From Pseudomonadota bacterium (lineage in GTDB: Bacteria > Pseudomonadota > Gammaproteobacteria > Burkholderiales > Rhodocyclaceae), in assembly GCA_018241665.1 (NCBI GenBank), contig JAFEDK010000018.1, forward strand, positions 1-35,227: a stretch of 35,227 nt of DNA, given 5' to 3'. A program made the position numbers and the translations under genes. Every line of letters begins with the position of its first letter. Position 1 is the stretch's first letter. Below, piece after piece: positions 20,701-33,601 of this stretch. Under the pieces are notes generated by a model. That model made no database searches. It saw nothing but the letters and a program-made list of their open reading frames with translations, and was not told the DNA's origin.

Positions 20701-21867
20701 TTATTGCCGTCTTTTCCGGATACTGGCAAATGTGGCGAGGCCCAAGGCGGCCAAGGTCATTGTGCCGGGTTCGGGCACCGTGTTGGTCCCGGGGACGGAT
20801 GGTGCGACAGGGGCAGAAACGGGTGTCGCAAACACGATATTGAACTGGGGATCGAGGCTGACACCTTGGTCAATAATCCCGATGGTGTAGAAACCCGGTC
20901 CCAGGTAGCTGCTGATGTTGTTTTCCCAGTTGTTGCTGCTGTCCGCGACAACGTGGATCAGATTCGCCAGTGAATTCGGATTGCATTGGGTGCCATCGCA
21001 CAATTCGAATCCATAGCTCGGTGGCGCTGCCAATATGCCTGCATCGGGAACACCGACAAAGGCCTGGAAGTTGCCCCCATTCCAATGGAAGGTGTAATAG
21101 GAGCTGCCAGGATAATTACCACCGATCTGCCCGGAAATGGAACCTGTGGCAGAAGTCAGCCCCAGGGGATTGGAGGCTGTCCCTCCCTGCATCCCGTTCT
21201 GGTTGCTGGCGGCCGTGTTGATGATGCTGAAGTTGGAAAAGGTTGTCGTGACGGGGACATTCATATTCGGGGTGCCATAGGACGTTAGATCGAAGCCCAA
21301 CGGAGCCGCGACATTCGACCCATACAAGGTGAGGGCATTCACGAATCCGCCGCCACCCTCGGAAAACGCCGCACTCAAGACATTGCCGGAGCGTGTGATC
21401 TGCATGACGACGGGACTGTCTGGATTGCTGGTGGTATAGGCCTCGGTGTGCACATTTCCGAACCCGTAGCCGTAGTCGGAGTAGCGGGATCCGGCTACTC
21501 CGGCCCAGTTGTTGAGGCCAACGCCGGCATACCCTCCAGGGAAGTCGGCATAGAACCCGGCTCCCGCGAATGCGCTTGTCGTTGCCGTGACCGTCGCCGT
21601 GAAGTCTCCGCTGGTTGGCAGCCAGATCGTGTTATGAGTGCTCTCGTAATTGGGTAGATTGGGATTGCCGACGATGGTGAGATTGTTCGTGGACGAGATG
21701 ACGGTAAACCCGGGCAGCGTTTGTCCATCTACCCAGGCGCTTGGTCCCTGGTAGCCGGGGGTCAGTGCGGTCAGGTTGATAGGTGCGGCGTCAGCACGGG
21801 CATTCGTACCATAGCCGGAGATTGCAAGCAGGATGGCCGAAGCGAGGCCAAGTTGTTTGATAGCCAC
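20701..21867 (-). CDS. PEP-CTERM sorting-domain secreted protein
   Basis: A 388-residue exported protein. From GTG 21867 (GGGAG site 6 bases upstream) it has a signal peptide, 'IKQLGLASAILLAISGYG', cleaved near 'NARA-DA'. The body is rich in Gly, Asn, Ser and Thr with predicted beta structure and only two cysteines ('ELCDGTQC'). The last ~25 residues are a PEP-CTERM tripartite signal: 'VPEPGT', a hydrophobic helix 'MTLAALGLATFAS' and basic 'RKRRQ'. Exosortase (EpsH/XrtA) recognises this signal in EPS- and floc-forming bacteria. No exosortase is in the window. The open frame continues 30 codons upstream, but that extension is not signal-like. The function of the body is unknown. Confidence 0.9.
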   Translation of the reverse strand: MAIKQLGLASAILLAISGYGTNARADAAPINLTALTPGYQGPSAWVDGQTLPGFTVISSTNNLTIVGNPNLPNYESTHNTIWLPTSGDFTATVTATTSAFAGAGFYADFPGGYAGVGLNNWAGVAGSRYSDYGYGFGNVHTEAYTTSNPDSPVVMQITRSGNVLSAAFSEGGGGFVNALTLYGSNVAAPLGFDLTSYGTPNMNVPVTTTFSNFSIINTAASNQNGMQGGTASNPLGLTSATGSISGQIGGNYPGSSYYTFHWNGGNFQAFVGVPDAGILAAPPSYGFELCDGTQCNPNSLANLIHVVADSSNNWENNISSYLGPGFYTIGIIDQGVSLDPQFNIVFATPVSAPVAPSVPGTNTVPEPGTMTLAALGLATFASIRKRRQ

Positions 21868-22271
21868 AGAAGACTCCCTGAGTCGTTTTCCCGCGAGTCG
21901 TGACAATGATGCGCAAGGGCGTCCCAAGGGGGCGGGAGGCAATGCTTTAGGATTCACATGCCCTACGCCATCTATACGTACGACGACTGTTGTGGATATT
22001 TTGAATGGTTAGCCTCCGTATCCCAATATGAATACTGGACGTGCAAATTGAATATTCAAGGCGAAGAATAATAAAGTTTGTTTCTTGTGTACTGCATGGA
22101 CTCGATGGCCACACGCCATCTGCCTCATGTGGCGATTGGTCACGCTGGCGCCTATGGTGATTTATGGCCGGACAACAAGGCGCATCGCCGTTGCCGGTCA
22201 ATCCCGCCCGCGCCCGGCCTCATCGGCAGCAGGCAGAACACCAACCTGTTCTACGCTGCAAGGAGATCCCC
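21868..22271. other. Divergent intergenic region with AT-rich core
   Basis: About 400 bp between the PEP-CTERM gene (minus) and the FMN reductase gene (plus). The stretch 21960-22085 is distinctly AT-rich compared with its surroundings and holds the perfect palindrome TTGAATATTCAA (22048-22059), with an imperfect one, CCAATATGAATACTGG, at 22023-22038. It probably contains the promoters of both genes. No coding sequence is supported. Confidence 0.5.
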
Positions 22272-22844
22272 ATGAGCACGTACAAGGTCGGCTATTTTGT
22301 CGGCAGTCTGTCGAGCACCTCGATCAACCGGCTGCTGGCCAAGGCCTTGGCGCGTCTGGCGCCGCCGGAGCTGGAGCTGACCGAGATCCCGATCCGCGAG
22401 CTGCCGCTGTACAGCCAGGACTACGATGCGGATTTTCCGCCGGTTGCCTGCGGTTTCAAGAAAGCCATCACCGATTCCGACGCGATTCTCTTCGTGACGC
22501 CGGAATTCAACCGCTCGATTCCCGGTGGCCTGAAGAACGCCATCGACTGGGCGAGCCGGCCATGGGGCAACAATTCCTTCGCCCGCAAGCCCGCCGCGGT
22601 GATCGGCGCCTCGCCCGGCGCCATTGGCACGGCGGTGGCACAGCAGAGCCTGCGCGGGGTGCTGTGTTTCTGCAATGCACCACTGATGAACACCGTCGAG
22701 GCCTACATCCAGTTCAAGCCCGGCCTCATCACCGAAGACGGGCAGGTGACGGACCCGTCCACCGAACAGTTCCTGAGCAACTACATGAAGGAATTCCACG
22801 CCTTCATCGTGCGGGTGCTGACGGTACTGCCGCGAAGCAGTTGA
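22272..22844 (+). CDS. NADPH-dependent FMN reductase family protein
   Basis: A 190-residue flavodoxin-like oxidoreductase. 'GSLSSTSINRLLAKALA' near residue 10 is the FMN-phosphate loop. 'FVTPEFNRSIPGGLKNAIDWASR' near 76-98 is the family signature of NADPH-dependent FMN/quinone/azo reductases (ChrR, YieF type). 'GASPGAIGTAVAQQSLR' is the third conserved loop. It should reduce quinones, chromate or flavin in the cytoplasm; the true substrate is not readable. ATG 22272 has an AGGAGA site, and the upstream in-frame extension is unsupported. The gene stands alone and converges with the SnoaL-like gene 42 bp away. Confidence 0.92.
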   Translation: MSTYKVGYFVGSLSSTSINRLLAKALARLAPPELELTEIPIRELPLYSQDYDADFPPVACGFKKAITDSDAILFVTPEFNRSIPGGLKNAIDWASRPWGNNSFARKPAAVIGASPGAIGTAVAQQSLRGVLCFCNAPLMNTVEAYIQFKPGLITEDGQVTDPSTEQFLSNYMKEFHAFIVRVLTVLPRSS

Positions 22845-22886
22845 ACCACGCGGTGTCGCCGGGCGGGGGGGCGTCGACGTCTGACC

Positions 22887-23312
22887 TCAGCCCGCCGCCA
22901 GGGCCTTCCGCAGCCAGCGCATGAGGCTGCCGATGACCGGCAGTTTCATGTACAACTCCTCGCCCGTATCCCAGTAGTCCCGGTGGTAATCAATCTTCCC
23001 ATCGCTGCCGAACTTGAGATGCGATGCACCGCGAATGACCTGCACCTCACCTCGTCCCCACAGGCGAGCACGGTAGGCAAATTCCCACATCAGCATGGCG
23101 CCGTGGGCGTCGCGCGTGTGTCCGGTGACGATGAAGCGCGGCTCATCCACTTGCTGGAACATGTGCGTGAAGATGTGCTGGATGGCCTCGGTGCCACGCA
23201 CCTCGTTGAACGGATCCTTGAAATAGGCATCGGCGCTGTAAAACTCGGCAAGACGCCCGACGTTTTCCGGCGTCAGCCCATGGTAGAGGGTGATCAGGCG
23301 GTCGAGATCCAT
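22887..23312 (-). CDS. SnoaL/NTF2-like protein
   Basis: A 141-residue single-domain protein with the cone-shaped NTF2-like fold (SnoaL-like family). 'LAEFYSADAYFKDPFNEVRGTEAIQHIFTHMF' and 'GKIDYHRDYWDTGEEL' are typical. 'HRDYWD' recalls the conserved C-terminal motif of limonene-epoxide-hydrolase and ketosteroid-isomerase relatives. No signal peptide is present, although the C-terminal 'PVIGSLMRWLRKAL' is amphipathic. It is the last gene of the eight-gene operon, with a one-base gap after the SDR stop (TGATATG). It may act on the SDR product; this is inference from position. Confidence 0.85.
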   Translation of the reverse strand: MDLDRLITLYHGLTPENVGRLAEFYSADAYFKDPFNEVRGTEAIQHIFTHMFQQVDEPRFIVTGHTRDAHGAMLMWEFAYRARLWGRGEVQVIRGASHLKFGSDGKIDYHRDYWDTGEELYMKLPVIGSLMRWLRKALAAG

Positions 23313-23313
23313 A

Positions 23314-24069
23314 TCAGGTTCCAGTGAGGCGGCGGATCAACGGGAAGTACCAGCGATAGGGCAGCAGCGACAGCAGCTTCAGCACGCGGGTGAAGCGCTT
23401 GGGGAAATGGATCTCGAAGTTCCCCGTCCGCAAGCCATCCATCGCGGCGTTGGCCGCCTGCTCGGGCGTCAGCAGTGCCGGCATGGTGAAATCGTTGCGG
23501 TCGGTCAGGCGAGTCTGCACGAAGCCGGGGTTGATCAGCCAGACGCCGATGCCTTGCGGCGCCAACTCAAGGTGCAAGCACTCGGCAAAATGGATCAGGG
23601 CGGCCTTGCCCGGTCCGTAGCACAGGGCCTTTGGCAAGCCGCGGTAGCCTGCCACGCTGGCCACGAAGGCGATCCCGCCACCGGCTTGCAGGGTGGGAAG
23701 CACGGTTGTGGCGAGGCGCATCGCGCCGTTGAAATTCACGGCGACCACCTGCTCGGCGCGCGCCAGATCGAAGTCGCTGGCGCGCATCGGCACATAGTCG
23801 CCGGCCAGGTACACCACCAGGTCGACACCGCCCCAGGCCGCCAGCAGCGCCCCATGCGCGCGGGCGAGGCTGGCCGCGTCGGTTGCGTCGCAGGGGAGTA
23901 GCAGGGCCGCATCGATGTCCAGCGCCCGCAACTTGTCCGCCGAACGTGCCGACAATGCCAGTCGTGCGCCGCGCCGGGCGAGTTCCCTGGCCATTGCAGC
24001 GCCGATGCCGCTCGAGGCGCCGACCAGCCAGACGCGTCGACCTTGCCAGTCCGAGATTGCCGGGTTCAT
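23314..24069 (-). CDS. Short-chain dehydrogenase/reductase (SDR)
   Basis: A 251-residue oxidoreductase. 'VWLVGASSGIGAAMA' (13-27) is the dinucleotide-binding G-x3-G-x-G, and 'LAGDYV' replaces the usual NNAG. Catalytic residues are Ser in 'VASVAG' and Tyr/Lys in 'CYGPGKAAL', and 'INPGFVQTRLT' follows. The C-terminal tail 'RVLKLLSLLPYRWYFPLIRRLTGT' is hydrophobic and basic, suggesting membrane association. ATG 24069 is preferred. A GTG at 24090, directly after the lipoprotein stop, is possible. SDRs are recurrent partners of Cfa/DUF1365 genes in light- or singlet-oxygen-induced clusters, where lipid substrates are suspected. Confidence 0.93.
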   Translation of the reverse strand: MNPAISDWQGRRVWLVGASSGIGAAMARELARRGARLALSARSADKLRALDIDAALLLPCDATDAASLARAHGALLAAWGGVDLVVYLAGDYVPMRASDFDLARAEQVVAVNFNGAMRLATTVLPTLQAGGGIAFVASVAGYRGLPKALCYGPGKAALIHFAECLHLELAPQGIGVWLINPGFVQTRLTDRNDFTMPALLTPEQAANAAMDGLRTGNFEIHFPKRFTRVLKLLSLLPYRWYFPLIRRLTGT

Positions 24070-24091
24070 CGCGATCTTCGCTCCCGTCACC

Positions 24092-24616
24092 TCAACGCTT
24101 GGCGAAGCTCAGCGTCACTTCGCCGAGCCTGAAGCCCCACTTCGACATGTAGGAGCGGTTGAGCATCACCTTGTCGTCCATCAGGAACATCCAGTCGTCG
24201 AAGTCGACGTGGTAAGTCTTGCCATCCACCGGCAGTGCCAGCACGTAGCGCCAGCGCAGTGCATTGCCGGCCACTTCGCCGACTGCCTCGCCGATCACGT
24301 CGTCGGCGGTGCCGCGATAGCTGCCGTCCGGCTGGCGCTTGAGCGTCCACACCCGCCGCGACGTCGTGCCGTCGGACCATTGGAAATGCTCGTCGAGAAC
24401 TCCGGTGTCGCCGTCCCAGCTGGCTTCGATGACGGCGTGGAAGCGCTTCTTTACCTCGCCAGAGCGCCCCTGGAAGACGCCCCAGGCGTCCAGGGTGCCA
24501 TTGAGGTAGTGCTGCAAATCGAGCGCCGGTTGTTCGGCCCGGTATTGCTCGACACCGTTTGATGCGCACGCGGTCAGGCCGACGGAGAGCAGGGCGGTAG
24601 TCAGCAGTTTCATCAT
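24092..24616 (-). CDS. DUF3833 family lipoprotein
   Basis: A 174-residue protein with a lipoprotein signal: 'MMKLLTTALLSVGLTAC', lipobox 'LTAC' and lipidated Cys17. The mature part has the repeated beta-strand pattern of DUF3833 ('YLNGTLDAWGVFQGRSGEV', 'DGTTSRRVWTLKRQPDGSYRGTADDVIGEA', 'FDDWMFLMDDKVMLNRSYMSKWGF'). It should be anchored in the inner or outer membrane facing the periplasm. It could be a lipid-binding barrel, but no function is established to my knowledge. Its ATG overlaps the transporter stop by four bases, so translation is coupled. Confidence 0.88.
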   Translation of the reverse strand: MMKLLTTALLSVGLTACASNGVEQYRAEQPALDLQHYLNGTLDAWGVFQGRSGEVKKRFHAVIEASWDGDTGVLDEHFQWSDGTTSRRVWTLKRQPDGSYRGTADDVIGEAVGEVAGNALRWRYVLALPVDGKTYHVDFDDWMFLMDDKVMLNRSYMSKWGFRLGEVTLSFAKR

Positions 24617-25833
24617 CGGATCTCCAGTGAGTCGCGCCAGCGCCAGAGCAAGCTGGCGGCCAGCAACTTGAAGCCGAGTGGCAGCAGGGCGTAAGCAAAG
24701 CTCAGCGCCCCCAGTCCATCTGAGCTACCCGGCCGATAATCGAGCACAGCCAGCAGTGGCAAGGCCAGACCGGCGGCCAGCGCGAGGTTGAGTTTGGCGA
24801 TCAGGTTCCACAGCCCGAAACAGGCGCCGGCCTGTCCCTGGCGCTCGCCCAGATCGGCGGCAATGGCGGCCGGCAGGGCCAGGTCGGCTCCCAGTGCCAG
24901 GCCGGATGCGAGGCAGATCACAGTGAAGGCCGCGATGTCTCCGGTGCCAAGTAACGCTGTACCGGCAAAGGCGCCCATGGCTACGACCATGGACAGACCC
25001 CACGCCCTTACTCGTCCGCAGCGGGCGGCCAACCTGACCCACAGAGGCAAGGAGGCGGCCCCGGCGACGAAATAGAGCGCAAGCAATGGACCGCTCGCTT
25101 TGGCGGCGCCCAGCACGTCGGCAACGAAGAACAGGAACAGCGTTGCGGGCAGCGCCGCGGCAATGCCGTTGACGATGAAGACGCCAAGCAGACGGCGGAA
25201 GGCCAGCTCGCCAAGGACGCGCCTCATGCTCTCGCCCAGTGAGGCGCCCGAGTTGGCGTTGCGCATCCCAACCCCAACTCGGGAAAAGGTTGTGGCGGCG
25301 GCAAGGAGCAACAAGGGGGGCAGGATCCAGGACAGACGTTCAGTACCGACGCTCACGTCGTTCGCCAGCAGCCCCGGCAGAGCGGCTGCGAGCATCACGC
25401 CGACCAGGCCGAAGCCCTCCCGCGCCGCCGTCAGCCGCGTTCGCAGCGCCGAATCTCCACCTAGCGCCGCCCCCCAGGCCTGGTAGGCCACCGAGGCGGC
25501 GGAGAAGCCCAGATAAGTCAGCCCCAGCGAACCGAGCAACCACAGGGCGGGTGAGGAGGGTTGTGGATTGAGCAAGGCGACAAAGCCGAGCGTGAAGGGC
25601 AGCAAGGCAAATGCCAGCATGCGGCGGCGTGGCCAGCGGTCGGCCAGCCAGCCCAGCCATGGGTCGACAAGGGCGTCGAGCAGGCGTGCCCCGAGCAGGA
25701 TGGCGCCAAGCAGCGCCAGATCCAAGCCGGTCGTCTCGACGTAATAACGGGGCACATGCACGTAGATTGGCAGCGCGGCGAACGCCAGGGGGAGACCGAG
25801 TGCCCCATAAGCCAACACCGCGCCGTTCGACAT
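24613..25833 (-). CDS. MFS transporter, GPH-like
   Basis: A 406-residue inner-membrane protein with about 12 hydrophobic helices. 'LLDALVDPWLGWLADRWPRRR' near 51-71 matches the D-x2-x-DP-x-x-G-x-x-x-D-R signature of the glycoside-pentoside-hexuronide/LtaA-like MFS branch. Related 'MFS' genes occur beside Cfa, DUF1365 and DUF3833 genes in other proteobacteria. A role in moving a lipid or lipid precursor is plausible but inferred. One base separates it from the chalcone-isomerase-like stop, and it overlaps the lipoprotein start by four bases. Confidence 0.9.
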   Translation of the reverse strand: MSNGAVLAYGALGLPLAFAALPIYVHVPRYYVETTGLDLALLGAILLGARLLDALVDPWLGWLADRWPRRRMLAFALLPFTLGFVALLNPQPSSPALWLLGSLGLTYLGFSAASVAYQAWGAALGGDSALRTRLTAAREGFGLVGVMLAAALPGLLANDVSVGTERLSWILPPLLLLAAATTFSRVGVGMRNANSGASLGESMRRVLGELAFRRLLGVFIVNGIAAALPATLFLFFVADVLGAAKASGPLLALYFVAGAASLPLWVRLAARCGRVRAWGLSMVVAMGAFAGTALLGTGDIAAFTVICLASGLALGADLALPAAIAADLGERQGQAGACFGLWNLIAKLNLALAAGLALPLLAVLDYRPGSSDGLGALSFAYALLPLGFKLLAASLLWRWRDSLEIR

Positions 25834-25834
25834 C

Positions 25835-26386
25835 TCAACTTTCCTTGCGTTGGAGCAGGGCGGCGCGCAGATCCGGGGCGCTTGTCCGTGCGTCGAGCCA
25901 GATGGCGAAGAAAGCTTCGGCGAAGCCCGGCGCGCTCATGGTGCCGAGCAGGCGATCCTCCTGATAGAAGCGGGCCCCGTCGGCGCTGTAAAGACCGAGC
26001 AAATGATCACCAGGCTTAACGTCGGGGAAGATGTGCTGCAGCTGTTCGCCCCAGCGTTTCAGCTGGGTTTCGTTGCTGACGAAGCGGCGCATCTCCTTGA
26101 TGCTGGCTTCAGCGATGGCCTTGCCTTCGATGTTGCGCTTGTAGTCAAGGCGCAGGGCGAGTGGTGGGCGCTGCGGGTCGTCACCGGCCCACAGGGTGGC
26201 TTCGTAAACCAGGAAGCCAAAACGGCGGTATTCACCGCTGCCCCAGCGCTTCAGGCCGGCCAGGGCTTCGACCTTGGCTCGGGCTGCCGGGAATACGCCA
26301 AGCAACGGGCTCGCCGCCAGCGCGAGCAGCAGCCGACGGCGCCGCGCGTCGCGATCAGCGGTGGGCGAGCTCGAACTGGACGACAT
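25835..26386 (-). CDS. Chalcone-isomerase-like domain protein, exported
   Basis: A 183-residue protein. The N terminus 'RDARRRRLLLALAASPLLGVFPAARA' is a signal peptide with an arginine cluster, possibly Tat-type, though the strict twin-arginine motif is incomplete. The mature domain ('YRRFGFLVYEATLWA', 'LALRLDYKRNIEGKAIAEASIKEMRRF', 'GDHLLGLYSADGARFYQEDRLLGTM', 'AFFAIWLDART') fits the bacterial chalcone-isomerase-like family, related in plants to fatty-acid-binding FAP proteins. Binding of a fatty acid or lipid in the periplasm fits the operon. The start overlaps the Cfa-like gene by 32 bases and no Shine-Dalgarno is obvious, so translation probably depends on coupling. Confidence 0.83.
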   Translation of the reverse strand: MSSSSSSPTADRDARRRRLLLALAASPLLGVFPAARAKVEALAGLKRWGSGEYRRFGFLVYEATLWAGDDPQRPPLALRLDYKRNIEGKAIAEASIKEMRRFVSNETQLKRWGEQLQHIFPDVKPGDHLLGLYSADGARFYQEDRLLGTMSAPGFAEAFFAIWLDARTSAPDLRAALLQRKES

Positions 26387-27551
26387 TGATGTTTCGGGCC
26401 AGGAAGCCAGCCTCGCAGTAGTGAAGGTAGAACCGCCACAGACGGCGGAAGTCTTCGTCGAAGCCCAGCGTGGCGATCTGTGCCCAGTTGGCCTCGAAGG
26501 CGGCGCGCCACTCGGCCAGGGTGCGGGCGTAATCGAGCCCGAAGGCGAATTCACCCGTGACTTGCAGGCCCTGCCGTTCGGCGGCCTTCCGGAAGGCGCT
26601 GCGAGACGGCAGCATGCCGCCGGGAAAGATGTACTGCTGAATGAAGTCGGTGCCGCGTCGATAGGTGGCGAACAGGTCGTCGCGAATCGTGATGCTCTGA
26701 ACCACCGCGCGGCCGTCCTTCTTGAGCGCCTGGGCGAGGGTGGCGAAGTAGCTTGGCCACCATTTCTCACCGACCGCCTCGAACATCTCGATGGAGACGA
26801 TGTGGTCGAAGCGCTCCCGGGTGTCACGGTAGTCCTGCAGGCGCAGGTCCGCTTGCGGCACGCGCTTTCGAGCCCACTCGAGCTGGGCTGGCGACAGGGT
26901 CAGCCCGGTGACCTGCAGACCGTTGTTGATGGCCATCTCGGCGAAGCCACCCCAGCCGCAGCCGATTTCAAGCACGCTGTCGCCCGGACTCGCCCGCAGG
27001 CGGTCGAGAATGCGGCGGTACTTGGCCCGCTGGGCGGTGAGCAGGGAGCCGTCGTCCTGCGCCCGGTAGAGCGCCGACGAGTAGCTCATGCTCGGGTCGA
27101 GCCACAGGCGGTAGAAATCGTTGCCCAGGTCGTAGTGGGCCATGATGTTGCGCTTGCTGCCGGCGCGGCTGTTGCGGTTGAACCAGTGACGTACCCGCGC
27201 GGCCAGCAGTTGCCGCCAGGAACCATAGATTGCCTTGGCGAGCGCGCCCCGGTTGCGGGCGAGCAGCGTGAGCAGGGCGGTGACGTCCGGCGAGTCCCAT
27301 TGGCCGTCCAGGTAGGCCTCGGCCAGCCCGATGTCTCCGCGGGCGAGCACCCGCCCGAACATGGCCTCGTCGTGTACCTGCAGGCTCTGGCTGCTGTCAC
27401 CCTCGCCGAACAGGGCGCGGGAGCCGTCCGGCAGGCGGACTTCGAGCAGGCCGCCGGTCAGCTTCTCCAGCAGTTTGAAGACCGTGCGGGTATCGCGGGC
27501 CAATGCTTGGGTGCCGCGCAGGGGGAGGGCGTAGTCGAGGGTCTGGGTCAT
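26355..27551 (-). CDS. Cyclopropane-fatty-acid synthase family SAM methyltransferase
   Basis: A 398-residue methyltransferase. Residues 1-120 are the N-terminal lipid-interacting region ('LARGDIGLAEAYLDGQWDSPDV'). 'HYDLGNDFYRLWLDPSMSYS' (139-158) is the Cfa substrate-side signature, and 'VLEIGCGWGGFAEMA' (193-207) is SAM motif I. 'IVSIEMFEAVGEKWW' and 'DFIQQYIFPGG' are the conserved bicarbonate/active-site segments. It should methylate double bonds of phospholipid acyl chains at the inner membrane. In a cluster with an FAD enzyme and DUF1365 it may instead make methyl- or furan-type fatty acids, as known for UfaM-type enzymes. ATG 27551 overlaps the DUF1365 stop by four bases. Confidence 0.94.
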   Translation of the reverse strand: MTQTLDYALPLRGTQALARDTRTVFKLLEKLTGGLLEVRLPDGSRALFGEGDSSQSLQVHDEAMFGRVLARGDIGLAEAYLDGQWDSPDVTALLTLLARNRGALAKAIYGSWRQLLAARVRHWFNRNSRAGSKRNIMAHYDLGNDFYRLWLDPSMSYSSALYRAQDDGSLLTAQRAKYRRILDRLRASPGDSVLEIGCGWGGFAEMAINNGLQVTGLTLSPAQLEWARKRVPQADLRLQDYRDTRERFDHIVSIEMFEAVGEKWWPSYFATLAQALKKDGRAVVQSITIRDDLFATYRRGTDFIQQYIFPGGMLPSRSAFRKAAERQGLQVTGEFAFGLDYARTLAEWRAAFEANWAQIATLGFDEDFRRLWRFYLHYCEAGFLARNINVVQFELAHR

Positions 27552-28312
27552 TTGGATGATTCCTGTACGGATCTGGGAATGGGCGTCGTCCCTCGGAAGG
27601 GCACCCTTTTGAACCACAGCCTGAGCGCCTGCCAATGGATGCGGGCGATGACGCCGAGGGTCAGGAAGGGCATGCGCAGGAAGGCCGAGAGCAGCGCACC
27701 GGCCGACCAGGGGACGGGCTTGCCGGAGAGGGCAGTGAGCAGCAGCTCGCCCTCTGCATCGTCGTAATCGATGCGCGCCACTTGAACGCTGCGCTGGCGC
27801 AGGAACCTGAAGCGGTAGCCGCCTTCGACGTCATTGAAGGGCGAGACGTGGAAGCACTTTCCGGCGTTCAATTCTTCGCCGTCACGCAGTGCTTCGCCGT
27901 GACGATGCAACAGATAGCTGTGAGTGCCGCCGAAGGTGTTGTTGACCTCGGCCAGGACGGCGATCAGCTGGCCCGTTCCATCGTGGCAAAACCAGAAGCT
28001 GACCGGGTTGAACACGTAGCCCAGCACCCGCGGGAAGGTTTGCAGCGTGATCTCTCCATCGCCAGGCAAACCGTGCTCGGCGAGCACGCCTTCTATCCAT
28101 GGCAGCAGGGGGCTGCCGTCACGGGGGCCGTGGTCCTTGCTGTGGAAGCTCAGCAGGTTGGGTTTGTCCAGCGAGAAGATGGTGCATGCCGCCGAGGCCA
28201 GATCGCGTACCGGTAGCTGCACGTAGAACACGGGATAGACGAAGGCATTGACCGCCGGGCGCAGGCGGCGATGCATTACGTGGCCAAGGCAGATTTGCGG
28301 GCGTGCGTTCAT
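27548..28312 (-). CDS. DUF1365 family protein
   Basis: A 254-residue protein of the DUF1365 family, almost always found beside Cfa-type methyltransferases and FAD-dependent amine-oxidase-like proteins. Hallmarks are 'GHVMHRRLRPAVNAFVYPVFY' at the N terminus, 'LPWIEGVLAEHG', 'LQTFPRVLGYVFNPVSFWFCHD', 'VLAEVNNTFGGTHSYLL' and 'KCFHVSPFNDVEGGYRF'. A hydrophobic C-terminal stretch ('LSAFLRMPFLTLGVIARIHWQAL') suggests membrane contact. Its reaction is not established. ATG 28312 is chosen because the family motif starts there. It lies 22 bp after the FAD enzyme stop. Confidence 0.93.
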   Translation of the reverse strand: MNARPQICLGHVMHRRLRPAVNAFVYPVFYVQLPVRDLASAACTIFSLDKPNLLSFHSKDHGPRDGSPLLPWIEGVLAEHGLPGDGEITLQTFPRVLGYVFNPVSFWFCHDGTGQLIAVLAEVNNTFGGTHSYLLHRHGEALRDGEELNAGKCFHVSPFNDVEGGYRFRFLRQRSVQVARIDYDDAEGELLLTALSGKPVPWSAGALLSAFLRMPFLTLGVIARIHWQALRLWFKRVPFRGTTPIPRSVQESSK

Positions 28313-28334
28313 GGGCGGCTTGGGCAGGCGTTCC

Positions 28335-29669
28335 CTAGACGGTTTCCGCTTCGTGGGGCCGGTGGATTGCCTTGTCTTGCCAGGGCGCGCTGACGCCCAG
28401 GCCGTTGGCAACCCGCAGCGCGGACCTCAGGCCGTCCTCGTGAAAACCGTAGCTGCCCCAGGCGCCAGCCAGCCAGATACCGCCTTCGCCCTGCACCTTG
28501 CCCAGTCGTTGTTGCGCTGCAATGGCGGTCCCATCAAAGATCGGATGGGCATAGTCGAATTCGGCGATAACTTTGGCGGGGTCCGGCTCGCGGGCCGGAT
28601 TCAGTGTCACCACTACCGGCGTGGAGAATGGCAGCGGCTGCAGCTTGTTGATCAGGTAGGACACGCCGACAGGCTGCGCAGCTGCGTCGGCGCCTGTCGC
28701 CGCCTTGCCGCCGAAGTAGTTCCACGCCGACCACAGCTTGCGGTCGCGCGGCAGCAGGGCCGGGTCGGTGTGCAGCACGGCGCGGTTCGGCTGGTAGCCG
28801 ATGGCGGACAGCACGTCGCGCTGTCCGTCGCTCGCCGTCATGCCGAGGATGGAGAGCGCCTGGTCGCTGTGGCAGGCCAGCACGACCTGGTCGAAACCTT
28901 CGCTGCCGCCCGCATGGACCACGCGCAACCCGTCGGCCGTGCGTGTAATCGCATGAACCGGGCAACCGATCCGCACGTCGTTCAACTGGGTGGCGATCTT
29001 CCTGACGTACTCGCGCCCACCACCCTGCACGGTGCGCCACAGGGGACGATCGAAGATCTGCAGCAAACCATGGTTCTGGCAGAAGTGGATGAAGGTGGCG
29101 AGCGGCATGTCGAGCATCTGGCCGGTCGGGCAGGACCAGATCGCCGCGGCCATGGGCAGCAAGTACCAATTGGAGAAGGCGTCCGAATACCTGCCGTCGC
29201 GCAGGAAATCGCGGAGGCTCCGCGTGGTGTCCGGATGGGTTGCCAGCCAGGCGGTGCTTTCGCGGTTGAAACGGAGGATGTCGGACAGCATGGACCAGAA
29301 CTGGCGTCGCACCAGGTTGCGCTTCTGACCGAAGAGGGTTGCCAGGCTGCTGCCGGCCCATTCCAGATCCGGCGTCTCCAGGCTGACCGAGAAGGACATT
29401 TCGGTCTCGACGCTCTCGACGCCAAGCAATTCGAACAGCGCGATCAGATTGGGGTAGGTCTTTTCGTTGAACACCAGGAAGCCCGTGTCGACCGGGTGCG
29501 TCTTGCCTTCGAGCCTTACATCGACCGTGTTGGTGTGGCCGCCTAGATAATTGCCTGCCTCGAACACCGTGACGTCGTACTGGCGTGACAGCAGCCAGGC
29601 GGTTGCCAGGCCGGAAATCCCGGCTCCGACCACTGCAATACGCTGTCTCGAATGGGTTCTGGCATTCAT
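28335..29669 (-). CDS. FAD-dependent amine-oxidase-like oxidoreductase (NAD(P)-binding Rossmann type)
   Basis: A 444-residue flavoprotein. 'RIAVVGAGISGLATAWLLSRQYDVTVFEAG' begins at residue 10 with the ADP-binding G-x-G-x-x-G at 15-20, followed by 'YLGGHTNTV'. 'GGGREYVRKIA' and the C-terminal FAD loop 'GIWLAGAWGSYGFHEDGLRSAL' place it in the FAD/amine-oxidase/desaturase superfamily. Homologs head Cfa-DUF1365 clusters in many proteobacteria. They are proposed to oxidise or desaturate acyl chains, but the reaction here is not known. ATG 29669 has a GGAGAAG site. A longer frame reaching 29801 runs through the promoter and operator and is rejected. It is the first gene of the operon, with a leader of about 110 bases. 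Confidence 0.92.
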   Translation of the reverse strand: MNARTHSRQRIAVVGAGISGLATAWLLSRQYDVTVFEAGNYLGGHTNTVDVRLEGKTHPVDTGFLVFNEKTYPNLIALFELLGVESVETEMSFSVSLETPDLEWAGSSLATLFGQKRNLVRRQFWSMLSDILRFNRESTAWLATHPDTTRSLRDFLRDGRYSDAFSNWYLLPMAAAIWSCPTGQMLDMPLATFIHFCQNHGLLQIFDRPLWRTVQGGGREYVRKIATQLNDVRIGCPVHAITRTADGLRVVHAGGSEGFDQVVLACHSDQALSILGMTASDGQRDVLSAIGYQPNRAVLHTDPALLPRDRKLWSAWNYFGGKAATGADAAAQPVGVSYLINKLQPLPFSTPVVVTLNPAREPDPAKVIAEFDYAHPIFDGTAIAAQQRLGKVQGEGGIWLAGAWGSYGFHEDGLRSALRVANGLGVSAPWQDKAIHRPHEAETV

Positions 29670-29755
29670 GCGCTTCTCCGGATTACTCGCTTCCACCGCC
29701 TGGTCCACCGGATTCGCGGTAGCTGCTTTGGTGGAGAACATACGTCTATGCTCTG

Positions 29756-29770
29756 TTTGTCCTAGACAAA
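29756..29770. promoter_or_regulatory. Operator O1, TTTGT-CCTAG-ACAAA
   Basis: A perfect 5-bp inverted repeat with a 5-bp spacer, located about +10 to +24 relative to the predicted leftward start site. The identical arms and spacing recur at 29830-29844. Further half-sites TTTGT at 29771-29775 and 29778-29782 and ACAAA at 29798-29802 fill the interval. This fits a multi-subunit CarH/LitR tetramer binding across the region and blocking transcription of the lipid operon in the dark. Confidence 0.7.
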
Positions 29771-29786
29771 TTTGTGCTTTGTTCGT

Positions 29787-29815
29787 AAGGTAGTGAGACA
29801 AAGAGCAGCTGTCAA
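29787..29815 (-). promoter_or_regulatory. Leftward promoter of the eight-gene operon
   Basis: On the minus strand, TTGACA (29810-29815) is a perfect -35 box followed, after exactly 17 bp, by TACCTT (29787-29792), a 3-of-6 match to the -10 box. Transcription would begin near 29780, upstream of operator O1 and about 110 bases before the FAD-enzyme start. The ACAAA half-site at 29798-29802 lies inside the spacer. Confidence 0.6.
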
Positions 29816-29829
29816 CGGTTTTTATAGTG

Positions 29830-29844
29830 TTTGTTCAGGACAAA
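29830..29844. promoter_or_regulatory. Operator O2, TTTGT-TCAGG-ACAAA, overlapping the regulator's ribosome site
   Basis: A perfect inverted repeat identical in arms and spacing to O1. It ends two bases before the MerR/CarH-like ATG at 29847, and its spacer and right arm contain the CAGGA Shine-Dalgarno. A possible -10 box, TATAGT, lies at 29823-29828 just upstream. Binding here should repress the regulator's own gene (autoregulation). Confidence 0.7.
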
Positions 29845-29846
29845 TT

Positions 29847-30758
29847 ATGAATTCCCCGAGCTATACCATTGCTGCTGTCGAGCGTGACACCGGGCTATCC
29901 AAAGATGTCCTGCGCATGTGGGAGCGGCGTTACGGCTTTCCTGTTCCGGAGCGGGATGGACACGGTGAGCGTCTTTATCCGGCTGCACAGGTTGAACGCT
30001 TGTGTGCGATAAAACGCCTGATGGATCAGGGGTATAGGCCTGGAAAGCTGATCGCCATGCCGGTGGAAGAGCTCAGTTCCCTGGCGCCTCGCCGCGGTGC
30101 TCAGGCTCGCACGAAGGGGGCTACGGTCGATGAGCCGGGGCAGGAAGAGTTGCTCACGCTGCTCCGGCAGCACGATGCCAATGGCTTCGTTCAGGCCTTG
30201 CAGCAGCAGCTGGCTCGCCAGGGCTTGCAGCGTTTTGTTCAGGACATCGTTGCGCCGTTGACACAGCAGGTTGGCGATGCCTGGGAGGACGGAAACTTCG
30301 AAGTGTTCGAAGAGCACCTCTTCACGGAGCTGACCAAGCGCGTGCTACGCCAGGCAGTCGCCAGCCTGCCGCAAGGGCGCGGCTCGCCGCGCGTGCTGTT
30401 GACCAGCGTGCCGGACGAGCAGCACATGCTCGGCCTGCTGATGGTCGAAGCCCTGCTGGCGCTTGAAGGGGCCGAGTGCATTCCGCTCGGCGCGCAAATG
30501 CCTGTGCTGGAGATCAGCCGAGCGGCGGCGGCGCATCGTGCCGACATCGTAGCCCTGTCGTTCTCGGTGGCCTTTCCCGCGCGGCAGCTTCCCAAGCTGC
30601 TTGAACCATTGCGCGCGGCGCTTCCGGCCGACATCGAGTTGTGGGTCGGAGGCAGTGGCGTCTTGCGCCTTAACCCTCCGGCCGGGGTCCGTCGCTTCTC
30701 CAGTCTGGACCAGGGTGTCGAGGCACTGGCGGCATGGCGGAGCGAGCACGCTGGGTAA
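29847..30758 (+). CDS. MerR-type, B12-binding light-responsive regulator (CarH/LitR family)
   Basis: A 303-residue repressor candidate. Residues ~6-75 are a MerR winged helix ('YTIAAVERDTGLSKDVLRMWERRYGFPVP'). A helical B12-cap domain follows (~97-175) with the signature W-x9-E-H (Trp146, Glu156, His157 in 'DAWEDGNFEVFEEHLF'). A Rossmann-type cobalamin-binding domain (~180-300) has E-x-H-x-x-G at Glu191-Gly196 with His193 as probable lower axial ligand, plus 'VALSFSV' and 'LWVGGSG'. In CarH these residues bind adenosylcobalamin, hold a DNA-bound tetramer in the dark, and release DNA when light breaks the Co-C bond. ATG 29847 places the ribosome site inside operator O2. It is divergent from the lipid operon it probably controls. 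Confidence 0.93.
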   Translation: MNSPSYTIAAVERDTGLSKDVLRMWERRYGFPVPERDGHGERLYPAAQVERLCAIKRLMDQGYRPGKLIAMPVEELSSLAPRRGAQARTKGATVDEPGQEELLTLLRQHDANGFVQALQQQLARQGLQRFVQDIVAPLTQQVGDAWEDGNFEVFEEHLFTELTKRVLRQAVASLPQGRGSPRVLLTSVPDEQHMLGLLMVEALLALEGAECIPLGAQMPVLEISRAAAAHRADIVALSFSVAFPARQLPKLLEPLRAALPADIELWVGGSGVLRLNPPAGVRRFSSLDQGVEALAAWRSEHAG

Positions 30759-30798
30759 AAGGTCTTTACTCCTGGCGGTGGGGCGGGGCGGGTATGTT

Positions 30799-31728
30799 TC
30801 AGCTTTCGGGCTGCGCGGTGGTGTCGTCCAGCAGGCCCACAAGCGTGTCGCGCAGCCAGGTCACCGCGGGGTCGGCGTGGTTGCGCGGGTGCCAGGCCAG
30901 ACGCAGGCCGAATCCCCGGTCGTCGAAGGGCAGGTCGAAGGTGTCGAGCACGTCGGCAAAGCGGCTCCTCAGCATCGACGGCAGTGTGCACACGTAATCC
31001 GAGTTGCGCAGGATTTCCGGTACCAGCATGAACTTCTCGACGGACACCACCACGTTGCGGTGGCGTCCCCGCTCGGCCAGCGTTTCGTCGATGTAGCCGC
31101 TGAAGTGCCCGCCGAATTCAGTGACCAGAACGTGCCGCAGGGCGCAGTATGCGTCCATGTCGAGGCTTGCCGTGCCGCGCGGGTGGCTCTTCCGCTGCGC
31201 CATCACGAAGGAGCCATGGAGCAGGGGTCGGACCCTCATCGATAAGGGTAGGAGGCGCTCGGAGGCGATCAGCACATCGACCTCCCCACCTTCCATCTGC
31301 GCCGCGATCAGGCCGGCATCGGGGTTGCGGAAGGCGATGCGTACGCCGGGCCCCGCGCAGGATGCGAGCTTCTCGATGAGCGGCAGTCCGAGTACCACCA
31401 TGGCGGTATCGTTGGCGGCAATCTGGAAGGTGCGCTCATCCGTGAGGGGGTCGAAGCTTGGCCGGTACTGCACGACCGATTCCAGGTCCTTGAGCACGGA
31501 ATGCAGGATCGGTCCCAGGGCCAGCGCGCGGGCGGTGGGCGTCATCCCGCGGCCTGCCTCGGCGGGCAGCAGCAGCGGATCACCGAAGATCTGGCGCAGG
31601 CGCGCCAACTGGGCCGACAGCGCCGGCTGGCTGAGGTGCAGGCGACGGGCGGCGCGGGTCACGTTGCATTCGGCCAGCAGCGCATCCAGGGAAACCAGCA
31701 GGTTCAGGTCGATCTGGCGTAGATCCAC
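30799..31728 (-). CDS. LysR-family regulator, NodD/LinR-like
   Basis: A 309-residue regulator. 'DLRQIDLNLLVSLDALLAECNVTRAARRLHLSQPALSAQLARLRQIFGDPLL' is the N-terminal helix-turn-helix of the NodD/NahR/SyrM branch, which begins with this DLR-x-x-DLN-L motif. The effector domain follows ('RTFQIAANDTAMVVLGLPLIEKL', 'VDVLIASERLLPLSMRVRPLL'). The start is taken as GTG 31728 directly before DLRQ. An in-frame ATG at 31806 would add 26 residues overlapping the promoter region and is less likely. It is divergent from the ABM-domain gene with an inverted repeat between them, so it probably controls that gene. The inducer is unknown, often an aromatic compound in this branch. Confidence 0.9.
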   Translation of the reverse strand: MDLRQIDLNLLVSLDALLAECNVTRAARRLHLSQPALSAQLARLRQIFGDPLLLPAEAGRGMTPTARALALGPILHSVLKDLESVVQYRPSFDPLTDERTFQIAANDTAMVVLGLPLIEKLASCAGPGVRIAFRNPDAGLIAAQMEGGEVDVLIASERLLPLSMRVRPLLHGSFVMAQRKSHPRGTASLDMDAYCALRHVLVTEFGGHFSGYIDETLAERGRHRNVVVSVEKFMLVPEILRNSDYVCTLPSMLRSRFADVLDTFDLPFDDRGFGLRLAWHPRNHADPAVTWLRDTLVGLLDDTTAQPES

Positions 31729-32638: not shown

Positions 32639-33601
32639 GTGCTCGACGTATTTTTCACCGCGGATGTTGAGATCTGGTGCGATGGGTGGGATGACATCGA
32701 CAAGAAGTTCCCTGCAGCTTTCAGGAAATACGTCATCGGGCCCACGCCCCGCGGCGATTTTGGTCTGCCTTATCAGCTGAAGGTTCTCGCAGACCATGGT
32801 TTACTTGGTACGTTCTTCGTTGAGCCGCTGTTCTCGACACGCTTCGGAAGCCACGCACTTGAGGAAATCGTTGGTTTCATCCGCGAAGCGGGTCAGGAAA
32901 TCCAGTTGCATCTGCACCCTGAGTGGGTAGACGAATCAATCGAACCGCTCATTGCCAATGCGTCGCGGAAACGCCAGCATCTGTTTCAATACACACTGGA
33001 AGAGCAGATACAACTCATCAAATCGGGGGCGGCCCTGCTCAGCAAGGCAGGGGCACCCGAGATCAACGCGTTTCGGGCTGGCAGTTTCGGATTTAACCGG
33101 GACACCCTGCGCGCCTTGGCAGCCAACGGTATCGGGTTCGACAGCAGCTACAATGCCACGCTCTTCGGCCCCGACAGTGGCGTGTCGCCGGGGGTGTTGC
33201 TGCACGAGCCCATGGAGTGCGAAAGCGTAATCGAGTATCCGATGACGGTTTTCCAGGACGGCCTAGGGGCGCTACGCCACGTTCAACTGACCGCCTGCTC
33301 TTCCGGTGAAATAGAAGCGATGCTTTGGCAGGCGCTGGAAGTCGGCCGCAAATCGTTCGTGATCCTGTTTCACAACTTCGAACTGCTCTCTCCATCCAAG
33401 TCGACGGCGGATCAGGTCGTGATCCGGCGCTTCCGGCGGCTTTGCGAATTTCTCGAACGAAACCGGGATTGTTTCCGCACCACTGGTTTTCACGGGTTGG
33501 AACCGAAGATGGTGACGACCCAGCCCATGCCGCTGAAATCAAACTTCTGGCATGTGACCACCAGAATTCTTGAGCAAATCTATCGTAGGAAGTATCGATG
33601 A
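32639..33601 (+). CDS. Polysaccharide-deacetylase-like protein (NodB-type fold)
   Basis: A 320-residue protein resembling the NodB/WalW-type deacetylases of surface-glycan clusters. 'FFTADVEIW' (5-13) carries the catalytic/metal Asp. 'EIQLHLHPEW' (87-96) offers metal-binding His91 and His93, and 'INAFRAGSFGFN' (142-153) is the conserved R-A-G motif. 'FVILFHNFEL' near 240-250 supplies the late His. No signal peptide is seen, so it acts in the cytoplasm or is soluble. The start GTG 32639 is chosen because the beta-strand begins directly there; the ribosome site is poor. Its stop overlaps the next gene by ATGA. It probably deacetylates a sugar or glycan precursor. Confidence 0.85.
   Translation: MLDVFFTADVEIWCDGWDDIDKKFPAAFRKYVIGPTPRGDFGLPYQLKVLADHGLLGTFFVEPLFSTRFGSHALEEIVGFIREAGQEIQLHLHPEWVDESIEPLIANASRKRQHLFQYTLEEQIQLIKSGAALLSKAGAPEINAFRAGSFGFNRDTLRALAANGIGFDSSYNATLFGPDSGVSPGVLLHEPMECESVIEYPMTVFQDGLGALRHVQLTACSSGEIEAMLWQALEVGRKSFVILFHNFELLSPSKSTADQVVIRRFRRLCEFLERNRDCFRTTGFHGLEPKMVTTQPMPLKSNFWHVTTRILEQIYRRKYR

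Follow-up and report, generated by a model that had tools for sequence, protein, structure and literature searches.

A candidate light-responsive regulon pairing furan fatty acid genes with photolyase genes in Rhodocyclaceae

The DNA analysed here, called the window, is a stretch of 35,227 nucleotides from a member of the Rhodocyclaceae (assembly GCA_018241665.1, contig JAFEDK010000018.1). It contains eight minus-strand genes which are read divergently from a gene for a MerR-type regulator with two B12-binding domains (Table 1). An earlier note, made from the letters alone, had proposed a lipid-modification operon under the control of light and B12. Its description of the eight genes, the divergent regulator and their spacings was confirmed by the listing of open reading frames and starts, and the Pfam names are all over cut-off. 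From the gene for the flavin adenine dinucleotide (FAD) enzyme to the SnoaL-like gene the spacings are +22, -4, -32, +1, -4, +1 and +1 bp, with start codons chosen among the listed starts; alternative starts are 29669 for the FAD gene and 24069 for the short-chain dehydrogenase/reductase (SDR) gene.

Table 1. Genes and predicted operators of the locus, with positions in the window.
Feature	Position	Strand	Evidence
SnoaL-like protein	22887..23312	-	SnoaL_2 53.3 bits
Short-chain dehydrogenase/reductase (SDR)	23314..24090	-	adh_short 128.7 bits
DUF3833 lipoprotein, predicted lipocalin/calycin-like barrel	24092..24616	-	PF12915 236.4 bits
Major facilitator superfamily (MFS) transporter, GPH-type	24613..25833	-	MFS_2 165.8 bits
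Chalcone-isomerase (CHI)-like protein, signal-peptide-like N-terminus by eye	25835..26386	-	Chalcone_3 32.1 bits, only just over the cut-off of 27
Cfa/UfaM-like S-adenosylmethionine-dependent fatty acyl methyltransferase	26355..27551	-	CMAS 271 bits
DUF1365 protein, UfaO family (furan-ring monooxygenase)	27548..28312	-	PF07103 253.6 bits
UfaD-like FAD amine-oxidase-type oxidoreductase, 468 aa	28335..29741	-	Amino_oxidase 71.3 bits, NAD_binding_8 58.6 bits
Predicted operator, FAD-side copy TTTGTCCTAGACAAA	29756..29770	.	14 bp before chosen FAD start; kept in relatives
Predicted operator, regulator-side copy TTTGTTCAGGACAAA	29830..29844	.	2 bp before MerR start; kept in relatives
CarH/LitR-like MerR regulator, two B12-binding domains	29847..30758	+	MerR_1, B12-binding_2 and B12-binding over cut-off

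The divergent region holds two near-palindromes, found by reading the sequence, with the 15-bp pattern TTTGTNNNNNACAAA, a predicted operator that is new in this analysis. The pattern has four exact sites in the 5.43-Mb genome, compared with about 0.4 to 1.3 expected from base composition alone and none for the reversed control, and its count was reached in 0 of 100 shuffles of the window and 0 of 200 shuffles of L084, a region on another contig. Two exact sites (29756 and 29830), 74 bp apart, are located between the regulator and the operon. The remaining pair is found where a photolyase operon begins on L084; there a third site with one mismatch lies between them and one site abuts the ATG. 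On the plus strand this operon encodes an FAD/NAD(P)-binding oxidoreductase, two photolyase/cryptochrome proteins and a photolyase-related DPRP protein. The opposite strand (L084 7345-9968) carries ABC1-kinase, DUF3429 and SDR genes, which lie on the other side of the shared operator and run divergently to the photolyase operon.

To compare relatives we used 80 related DUF1365 loci (1.41 Mb in all), the nearest being from Zoogloea sp. (L002, 85% identity) and an unclassified metagenome-assembled genome (L003, 86%), followed by Dechloromonas, Azonexus and their relatives; the DNA of the window thus probably comes from a Zoogloea. Both the MerR and the FAD gene are present in 59 loci, and 65 of 68 operator sites lie between these two genes (with margins of 50 bp), while the reversed control matched once in all 80 loci. 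At least one exact operator is found in the gap in 39 of the 59 loci, and 25 of the 26 operator pairs closer than 300 bp are spaced exactly 74 bp. The stricter pattern TTTGTCNNNGACAAA has 39 sites in the 41 family genomes, compared with one for the control, and occurs in 20 of these genomes. The 36 family sites outside the genome of the window are covered by 30 fetched regions, of which 16 have the site beside MerR or furan-operon genes and three beside the photolyase group.

Among 23 genomes of the genus, 20 encode DUF1365, and 14 of those 20 have an operator site within about 3.3 kb of it. Twenty further genus regions were chosen from the 65 forward sites of a looser pattern, leaving aside sites less than about 5 kb from DUF1365, the G036 site (identical to L128) and, except for L172, sites not fitting TTTGTCNNNGACAAA. 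In nine regions the site is found just before the FAD gene of the photolyase operon, in one before a MerR gene with glutathione peroxidase and folE2, in three near a gene for DUF3429 (assigned by Pfam in L155 and by likeness in L157 and L170) and in one by an ABC1-kinase-like gene (named by eye). Two regions, L161 and L164, have two operators 125 bp apart between CBS-domain-like and VIT1-like membrane genes (by eye). Nothing recognisable surrounds the operators of L156, L163 and L172, nor that of L166 in a search with the query proteins only. The pairing of lipid operon and photolyase genes through one predicted operator thus recurs in genus and family, which supports the light control claimed in the earlier note with independent genome evidence.

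The gene order is conserved as well. All eight genes were found in the same order in 51 of the 80 loci, with the MerR gene also detected in 45 of these 51. Among the 60 loci with enough flank the set is complete in 45, so that the neighbourhood check which the earlier note had suggested came out in its favour and the eight-gene set is not a chance arrangement. The order FAD-DUF1365-Cfa is kept in 77 of the 77 loci carrying all three genes. Eight of the 15 incomplete loci lack both the CHI-like and the MFS gene; over 65 loci both are present in 56, both absent in eight and split in one. The absences concern six Chromobacterium loci, L003 and L072. In L003, L044-L046, L051, L054, L072 and L076 the two genes are gone together and the remainder of the operon is kept; the pair thus looks like one cassette, and its losses look independent of each other.

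The window encodes proteins of the FAD amine-oxidase, DUF1365 and CMAS types next to one another, which is the gene set of the furan fatty acid pathway. In Rhodobacter sphaeroides, UfaM, UfaD (RSP1091) and UfaO (RSP1090) turn cis-vaccenate into a methylated furan fatty acid and are sufficient for furan fatty acids; UfaO carries DUF1365 and the oxygen of the furan ring derives from O2, with a cofactor given as not known in that study (PMC7380195). Halomonas sp. YLGW01 has ufaM, ufaD and ufaO side by side, as here, and its UfaM yields the methylated intermediate in Escherichia coli; unlike here, a light regulator is not mentioned with its ufa genes in the available part of the report (PMC12089945). 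The three genes of the window probably correspond to ufaD, ufaO and ufaM, and furan fatty acid chemistry is likely. The idea in the earlier note that the operon modifies acyl chains is strengthened by this trio. DUF1365 had been listed there as a recurrent neighbour of Cfa and FAD genes; the co-occurrence holds, but the protein is more than a neighbour, as it belongs to the UfaO family with its furan-ring step.

The Cfa-like protein scores 285.4 bits, below the cut-off of 400 for the NCBIfam Cfa equivalog. We inspected its bicarbonate site in 90 sequences including that of the window, with the E. coli Cfa numbering matched by eye and the site residues as named in PMC3132707. The position of C139 is S in 56 and A in 34 sequences and that of H266 is Q in all 90, while E239, I268 and Y317 are kept in 90 of 90. 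With two of five bicarbonate-site residues changed in all sequences, the protein was not classed as a canonical cyclopropane fatty acid synthase. The only further CMAS match in the genome is partial and scores 39 bits.

The regulator has the MerR helix-turn-helix followed by both B12-binding domains, as in class I of the CarH/LitR family, and aligns with the Thermus thermophilus CarH/LitR structures; at E<=0.001 the genome yielded no second protein of this type. G143, W146, E156, H157, H193, G196 and G215 are invariant in 75 regulator sequences, so that W-x9-EH and the lower-ligand His, which mark class I, are found in 75 of 75. Three parts of the published four-part signature (PMC11796333) are conserved, namely GxxW and EH in 75 of 75 and GxxxP in 74 of 75 (Gly in 75, Pro in 74). 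Class II LitR proteins keep only B12-binding_2; the second B12 domain of our regulator scores 37.7 bits, over a cut-off of 32.1, which speaks against a class II assignment. The genome encodes a corrinoid adenosyltransferase, CobS and a CobT-type enzyme, so adenosylcobalamin (AdoCbl) is probably available, and AdoCbl is the likely chromophore.

We consider it fairly probable that an AdoCbl-type, light-responsive MerR repressor runs the furan-lipid operon and the separate photolyase operon as one regulon. In the dark the repressor, most likely with an AdoCbl chromophore as in CarH/LitR, would sit on both 15-bp operators in the gap that separates its gene from the operon, and light would release it and allow expression of the eight genes. 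The Cfa-like enzyme would then methylate a cis-unsaturated acyl chain (the UfaM step), the FAD enzyme would desaturate the methylated chain (the UfaD step) and the DUF1365 protein would insert oxygen and close the furan ring (the UfaO step), giving furan fatty acids in the membrane. Binding or transport of the modified lipids is the probable task of the DUF3833 lipoprotein and of the CHI-like/MFS pair. The same repressor would control the photolyase operon, which encodes two photolyase/cryptochrome proteins besides a photolyase-related one, so that protection of the membrane would increase in step with DNA photorepair; furan-lipid defence and photorepair are probably switched on jointly in light.

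Several observations weigh against this reading. With one mismatch allowed, the pattern has 23 genome sites compared with 19 for the control and is hardly enriched, so inexact copies of the operator carry little weight; likewise, the loose pattern has 65 sites in the 23 genus genomes compared with 21 for the control. An exact operator is missing from the MerR-FAD gap in 20 of the 59 loci, and 11 of the 30 family regions have neither group of expected genes at the site (L108, L110, L112, L113, L114, L116, L118, L132, L133, L134 and L135). A consensus scan of 22600-31000 found no sigma-70 promoter. Among the regulators, none of the 75 sequences has His at the position of H132, and in GxxH, the fourth part of the signature, the Gly is mostly replaced (kept in 10 of 75, with Asp in the window), while the window protein reaches 127.8 bits where the NCBIfam CarH equivalog model asks for 400. 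The trio is assigned to UfaD, UfaO and UfaM by family membership. Lastly, the FAD-fused cotton enzymes GhCPS1 (H266Q, C139S) and GhCPS2 (C139S) make cyclopropane fatty acids (PMC3132707).

Because plant enzymes with such changes in the bicarbonate site still make cyclopropane, the furan product is proposed here with cyclopropane kept as a rival. The light regulon would then be the same, and the Cfa-like/FAD pair would make a cyclopropane or another methylated chain instead of a furan fatty acid, which we regard as unlikely. The cotton proteins combine an N-terminal FAD-oxidase domain with site changes of the same kind (PMC3132707), and the Cfa-like enzyme could be the only Cfa of the genome, since no other full-length CMAS match was found. 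This alternative leaves the position of DUF1365 between the FAD and Cfa-like genes in all 77 loci with the three genes, as well as the missed Cfa equivalog cut-off, to be accounted for. In addition, Arabidopsis has in AT3G23510 a protein with likeness to both UfaM and UfaD, and its UfaO-like DUF1365 protein, AT1G30130, is a separate one (PMC10940516).

The DUF1365 protein itself was modelled with a predicted local distance difference test (pLDDT) score of 86.9. No PDB structure matched the model at E<=0.001, the best being a nitrobindin mutant (6.8e-3, TM 0.30/0.43), and no sequence relatives were found in the PDB at E<=0.1; we make no claim on the fold or, from it, on a UfaO cofactor. In alignment A1, H14, H131, H155, H226 and C109 do not vary. 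In L042 (9995-10765) and L040 (10001-10723) a DUF1365 gene adjoins the same type of regulator, and neither an FAD nor a Cfa-like gene was detected within the 20.7 kb of the locus, which suggests other possible substrates for DUF1365. A plasmid search returned 92 plasmid records with DUF1365 relatives.

The departures of the regulator listed above, at H132, at the Gly of GxxH and in the equivalog score, are also what speaks for a sensor of another kind, one that binds no AdoCbl, needs a LOV partner or responds to redox state or cobalamin level and not to light via B12. Class II LitRs moreover run a similar Pseudomonas operon and need no B12 for it (PMC9758184). We give this alternative a low probability, as both B12 domains are over cut-off, unlike in class II LitR, and, apart from the GxxH Gly, every part of the published signature is found in at least 74 of the 75 sequences. 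The H132 position varies among other photoreceptors tested (PMC11796333), and the operator is common to the photolyase operon. The B12 sensing put forward in the earlier note is likely: the domains, the W/EH motif and the lower-ligand His agree with it, and H132, the GxxH Gly and the CarH equivalog cut-off do not. Since that cut-off was missed, we infer a CarH-like action and do not file the protein as a CarH equivalog. It resembles class I CarH/LitR proteins in domain order, W-x9-EH, the lower-ligand His, GxxW, EH and GxxxP and differs from them in the features just named; furthermore, the best-known members of the class target carotenoid genes, compared with lipid and photolyase genes as the predicted targets here.

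The earlier note had also suggested that the SDR, SnoaL-like, CHI-like and DUF3833 proteins carry the pathway further, to a lipid that has not been described. Of the 60 loci with enough flank, 45 indeed keep the accessory genes and the trio in the same order; even so, we find this proposal improbable. Presumably RSP1087, 1088 and 1089 of R. sphaeroides are the counterparts of the SDR, DUF3833 and MFS genes. Single deletions of RSP1087, 1088 or 1089 left the fatty-acid profile unchanged (PMC7380195). The CHI-like and MFS genes are jointly absent in eight of 65 loci, and DUF3833 resembles a binding protein in its predicted model. The AlphaFold2 model (pLDDT 91.4) is a predicted antiparallel up-and-down beta barrel, as in the lipocalin/calycin superfamily, and has 22 PDB matches at E<=0.001, including the fatty-acid-binding-like Ycf58, nitrobindin and several designed barrels. 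Among the 50 matches listed, the TM-scores by query length are 0.32-0.65, and several of these matches are designed barrels. Of 68 sequences, at least 95% have the lipobox-like Cys17. A predicted lipocalin-like lipoprotein suggests a role in binding or transport, and together with the co-inherited CHI-like/MFS pair it would suggest lipid handling.

A further alternative, in which singlet oxygen acts through an extracytoplasmic function (ECF) sigma factor plus ChrR and the MerR protein has a secondary role, is very improbable. In its favour, a Shewanella cfa/phrB operon, photolyase-related gene and SDR are predicted under RpoE2-ChrR and a glutathione peroxidase is reported as RpoE2-dependent (PMC4336711), one of three Cupin_7 matches in our genome is over the Pfam cut-off (31.9 vs 27 bits) and ChrR is matched at least weakly in 16 of the 41 family genomes. 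Against it, the ChrR model reaches 22.1 bits at best here compared with a cut-off of 124.5, is over cut-off in one of the 41 genomes, which has no operator site, and neither TGATC nor GATCA occurs in 29700-29850.

A light-induced cluster of this kind is already known in Pseudomonas (PMC9758184) and a blue-light-induced Cfa gene in Vibrio (PMC5241685). Pseudomonas mendocina has a nine-gene light-induced operon (PME6650-6610) with an SDR, an FAD protein and UfaM, which a class II LitR represses and a LOV protein derepresses; the P. putida homologues need no B12 (PMC9758184). In both systems one operon near a LitR/CarH-family gene combines an SDR, an FAD oxidoreductase and UfaM or its probable counterpart, and both fit a repressor model. 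They differ in that P. mendocina has a class II LitR with no working second B12 domain, a short LOV partner, T(G/A)TACA boxes and phrB nearby (PMC9758184), whereas our regulator has both B12 domains over cut-off, its predicted operator is TTTGTNNNNNACAAA and the photolyase genes lie on a separate contig.

The Shewanella regulon has RpoE2-type promoters in front of a cfa/phrB operon and of the genes for a periplasmic glutathione peroxidase, a photolyase-related protein and an SDR. As proposed here, Cfa, a photolyase-related gene, an SDR and phr genes are assigned to one regulator, but this is an ECF sigma/anti-sigma pair with TGATC promoters and not a MerR operator (PMC4336711). A glutathione peroxidase gene as in that regulon (PMC4336711) is not present in our window, yet such a gene is found between MerR and FAD in 32 of the 59 relatives, as is folE2 in 23 and both in 19, which adds to the likeness with the known programmes. 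In these loci (L004 7275-8669 and relatives) the operator pair beside the regulator often keeps its 74-bp spacing. Vibrio cholerae raises the expression of a Cfa gene under blue light, and a double knockout of ChrR and MerR is blind to light (PMC5241685). R. sphaeroides shares the UfaD, UfaO and UfaM functions; RSP1087-1091 is a five-gene operon there, also with genes for 245 and 186 aa, ufaM (RSP2144) is outside it and levels rise upon loss of chrR (PMC7380195), whereas here the Cfa-like gene is inside an operon of eight genes next to a MerR-B12 regulator. The gene programme is therefore known from Pseudomonas, Shewanella and Vibrio, and with ChrR below cut-off its wiring appears to differ here. 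No AdoCbl-type regulator of furan fatty acid genes was found among the literature matches listed.

Outside the operon, the window encodes a protein with a PEP-CTERM-like sorting signal at its end (20701-21957, by eye) and a protein of 320 aa (32639-33601) for which Pfam gave no match at E<=0.001.

The findings suggest that a known programme against photo-oxidative stress has been wired to a third kind of sensor. More speculatively, one AdoCbl switch with a 15-bp operator might command furan lipids and photorepair across the Rhodocyclaceae in place of sigma-E/ChrR and LOV/LitR, and the CHI-like, MFS and DUF3833 proteins might form a periplasmic route for furan lipids to the outer membrane, a wider claim that we hold as doubtful. 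The predicted regulon is concrete in its operator, targets and sensor residues and occurs in bacteria not known for photosynthesis. It would offer a natural set for studying DUF1365/UfaO, a putative oxygen-inserting enzyme, and a structural idea for DUF3833.

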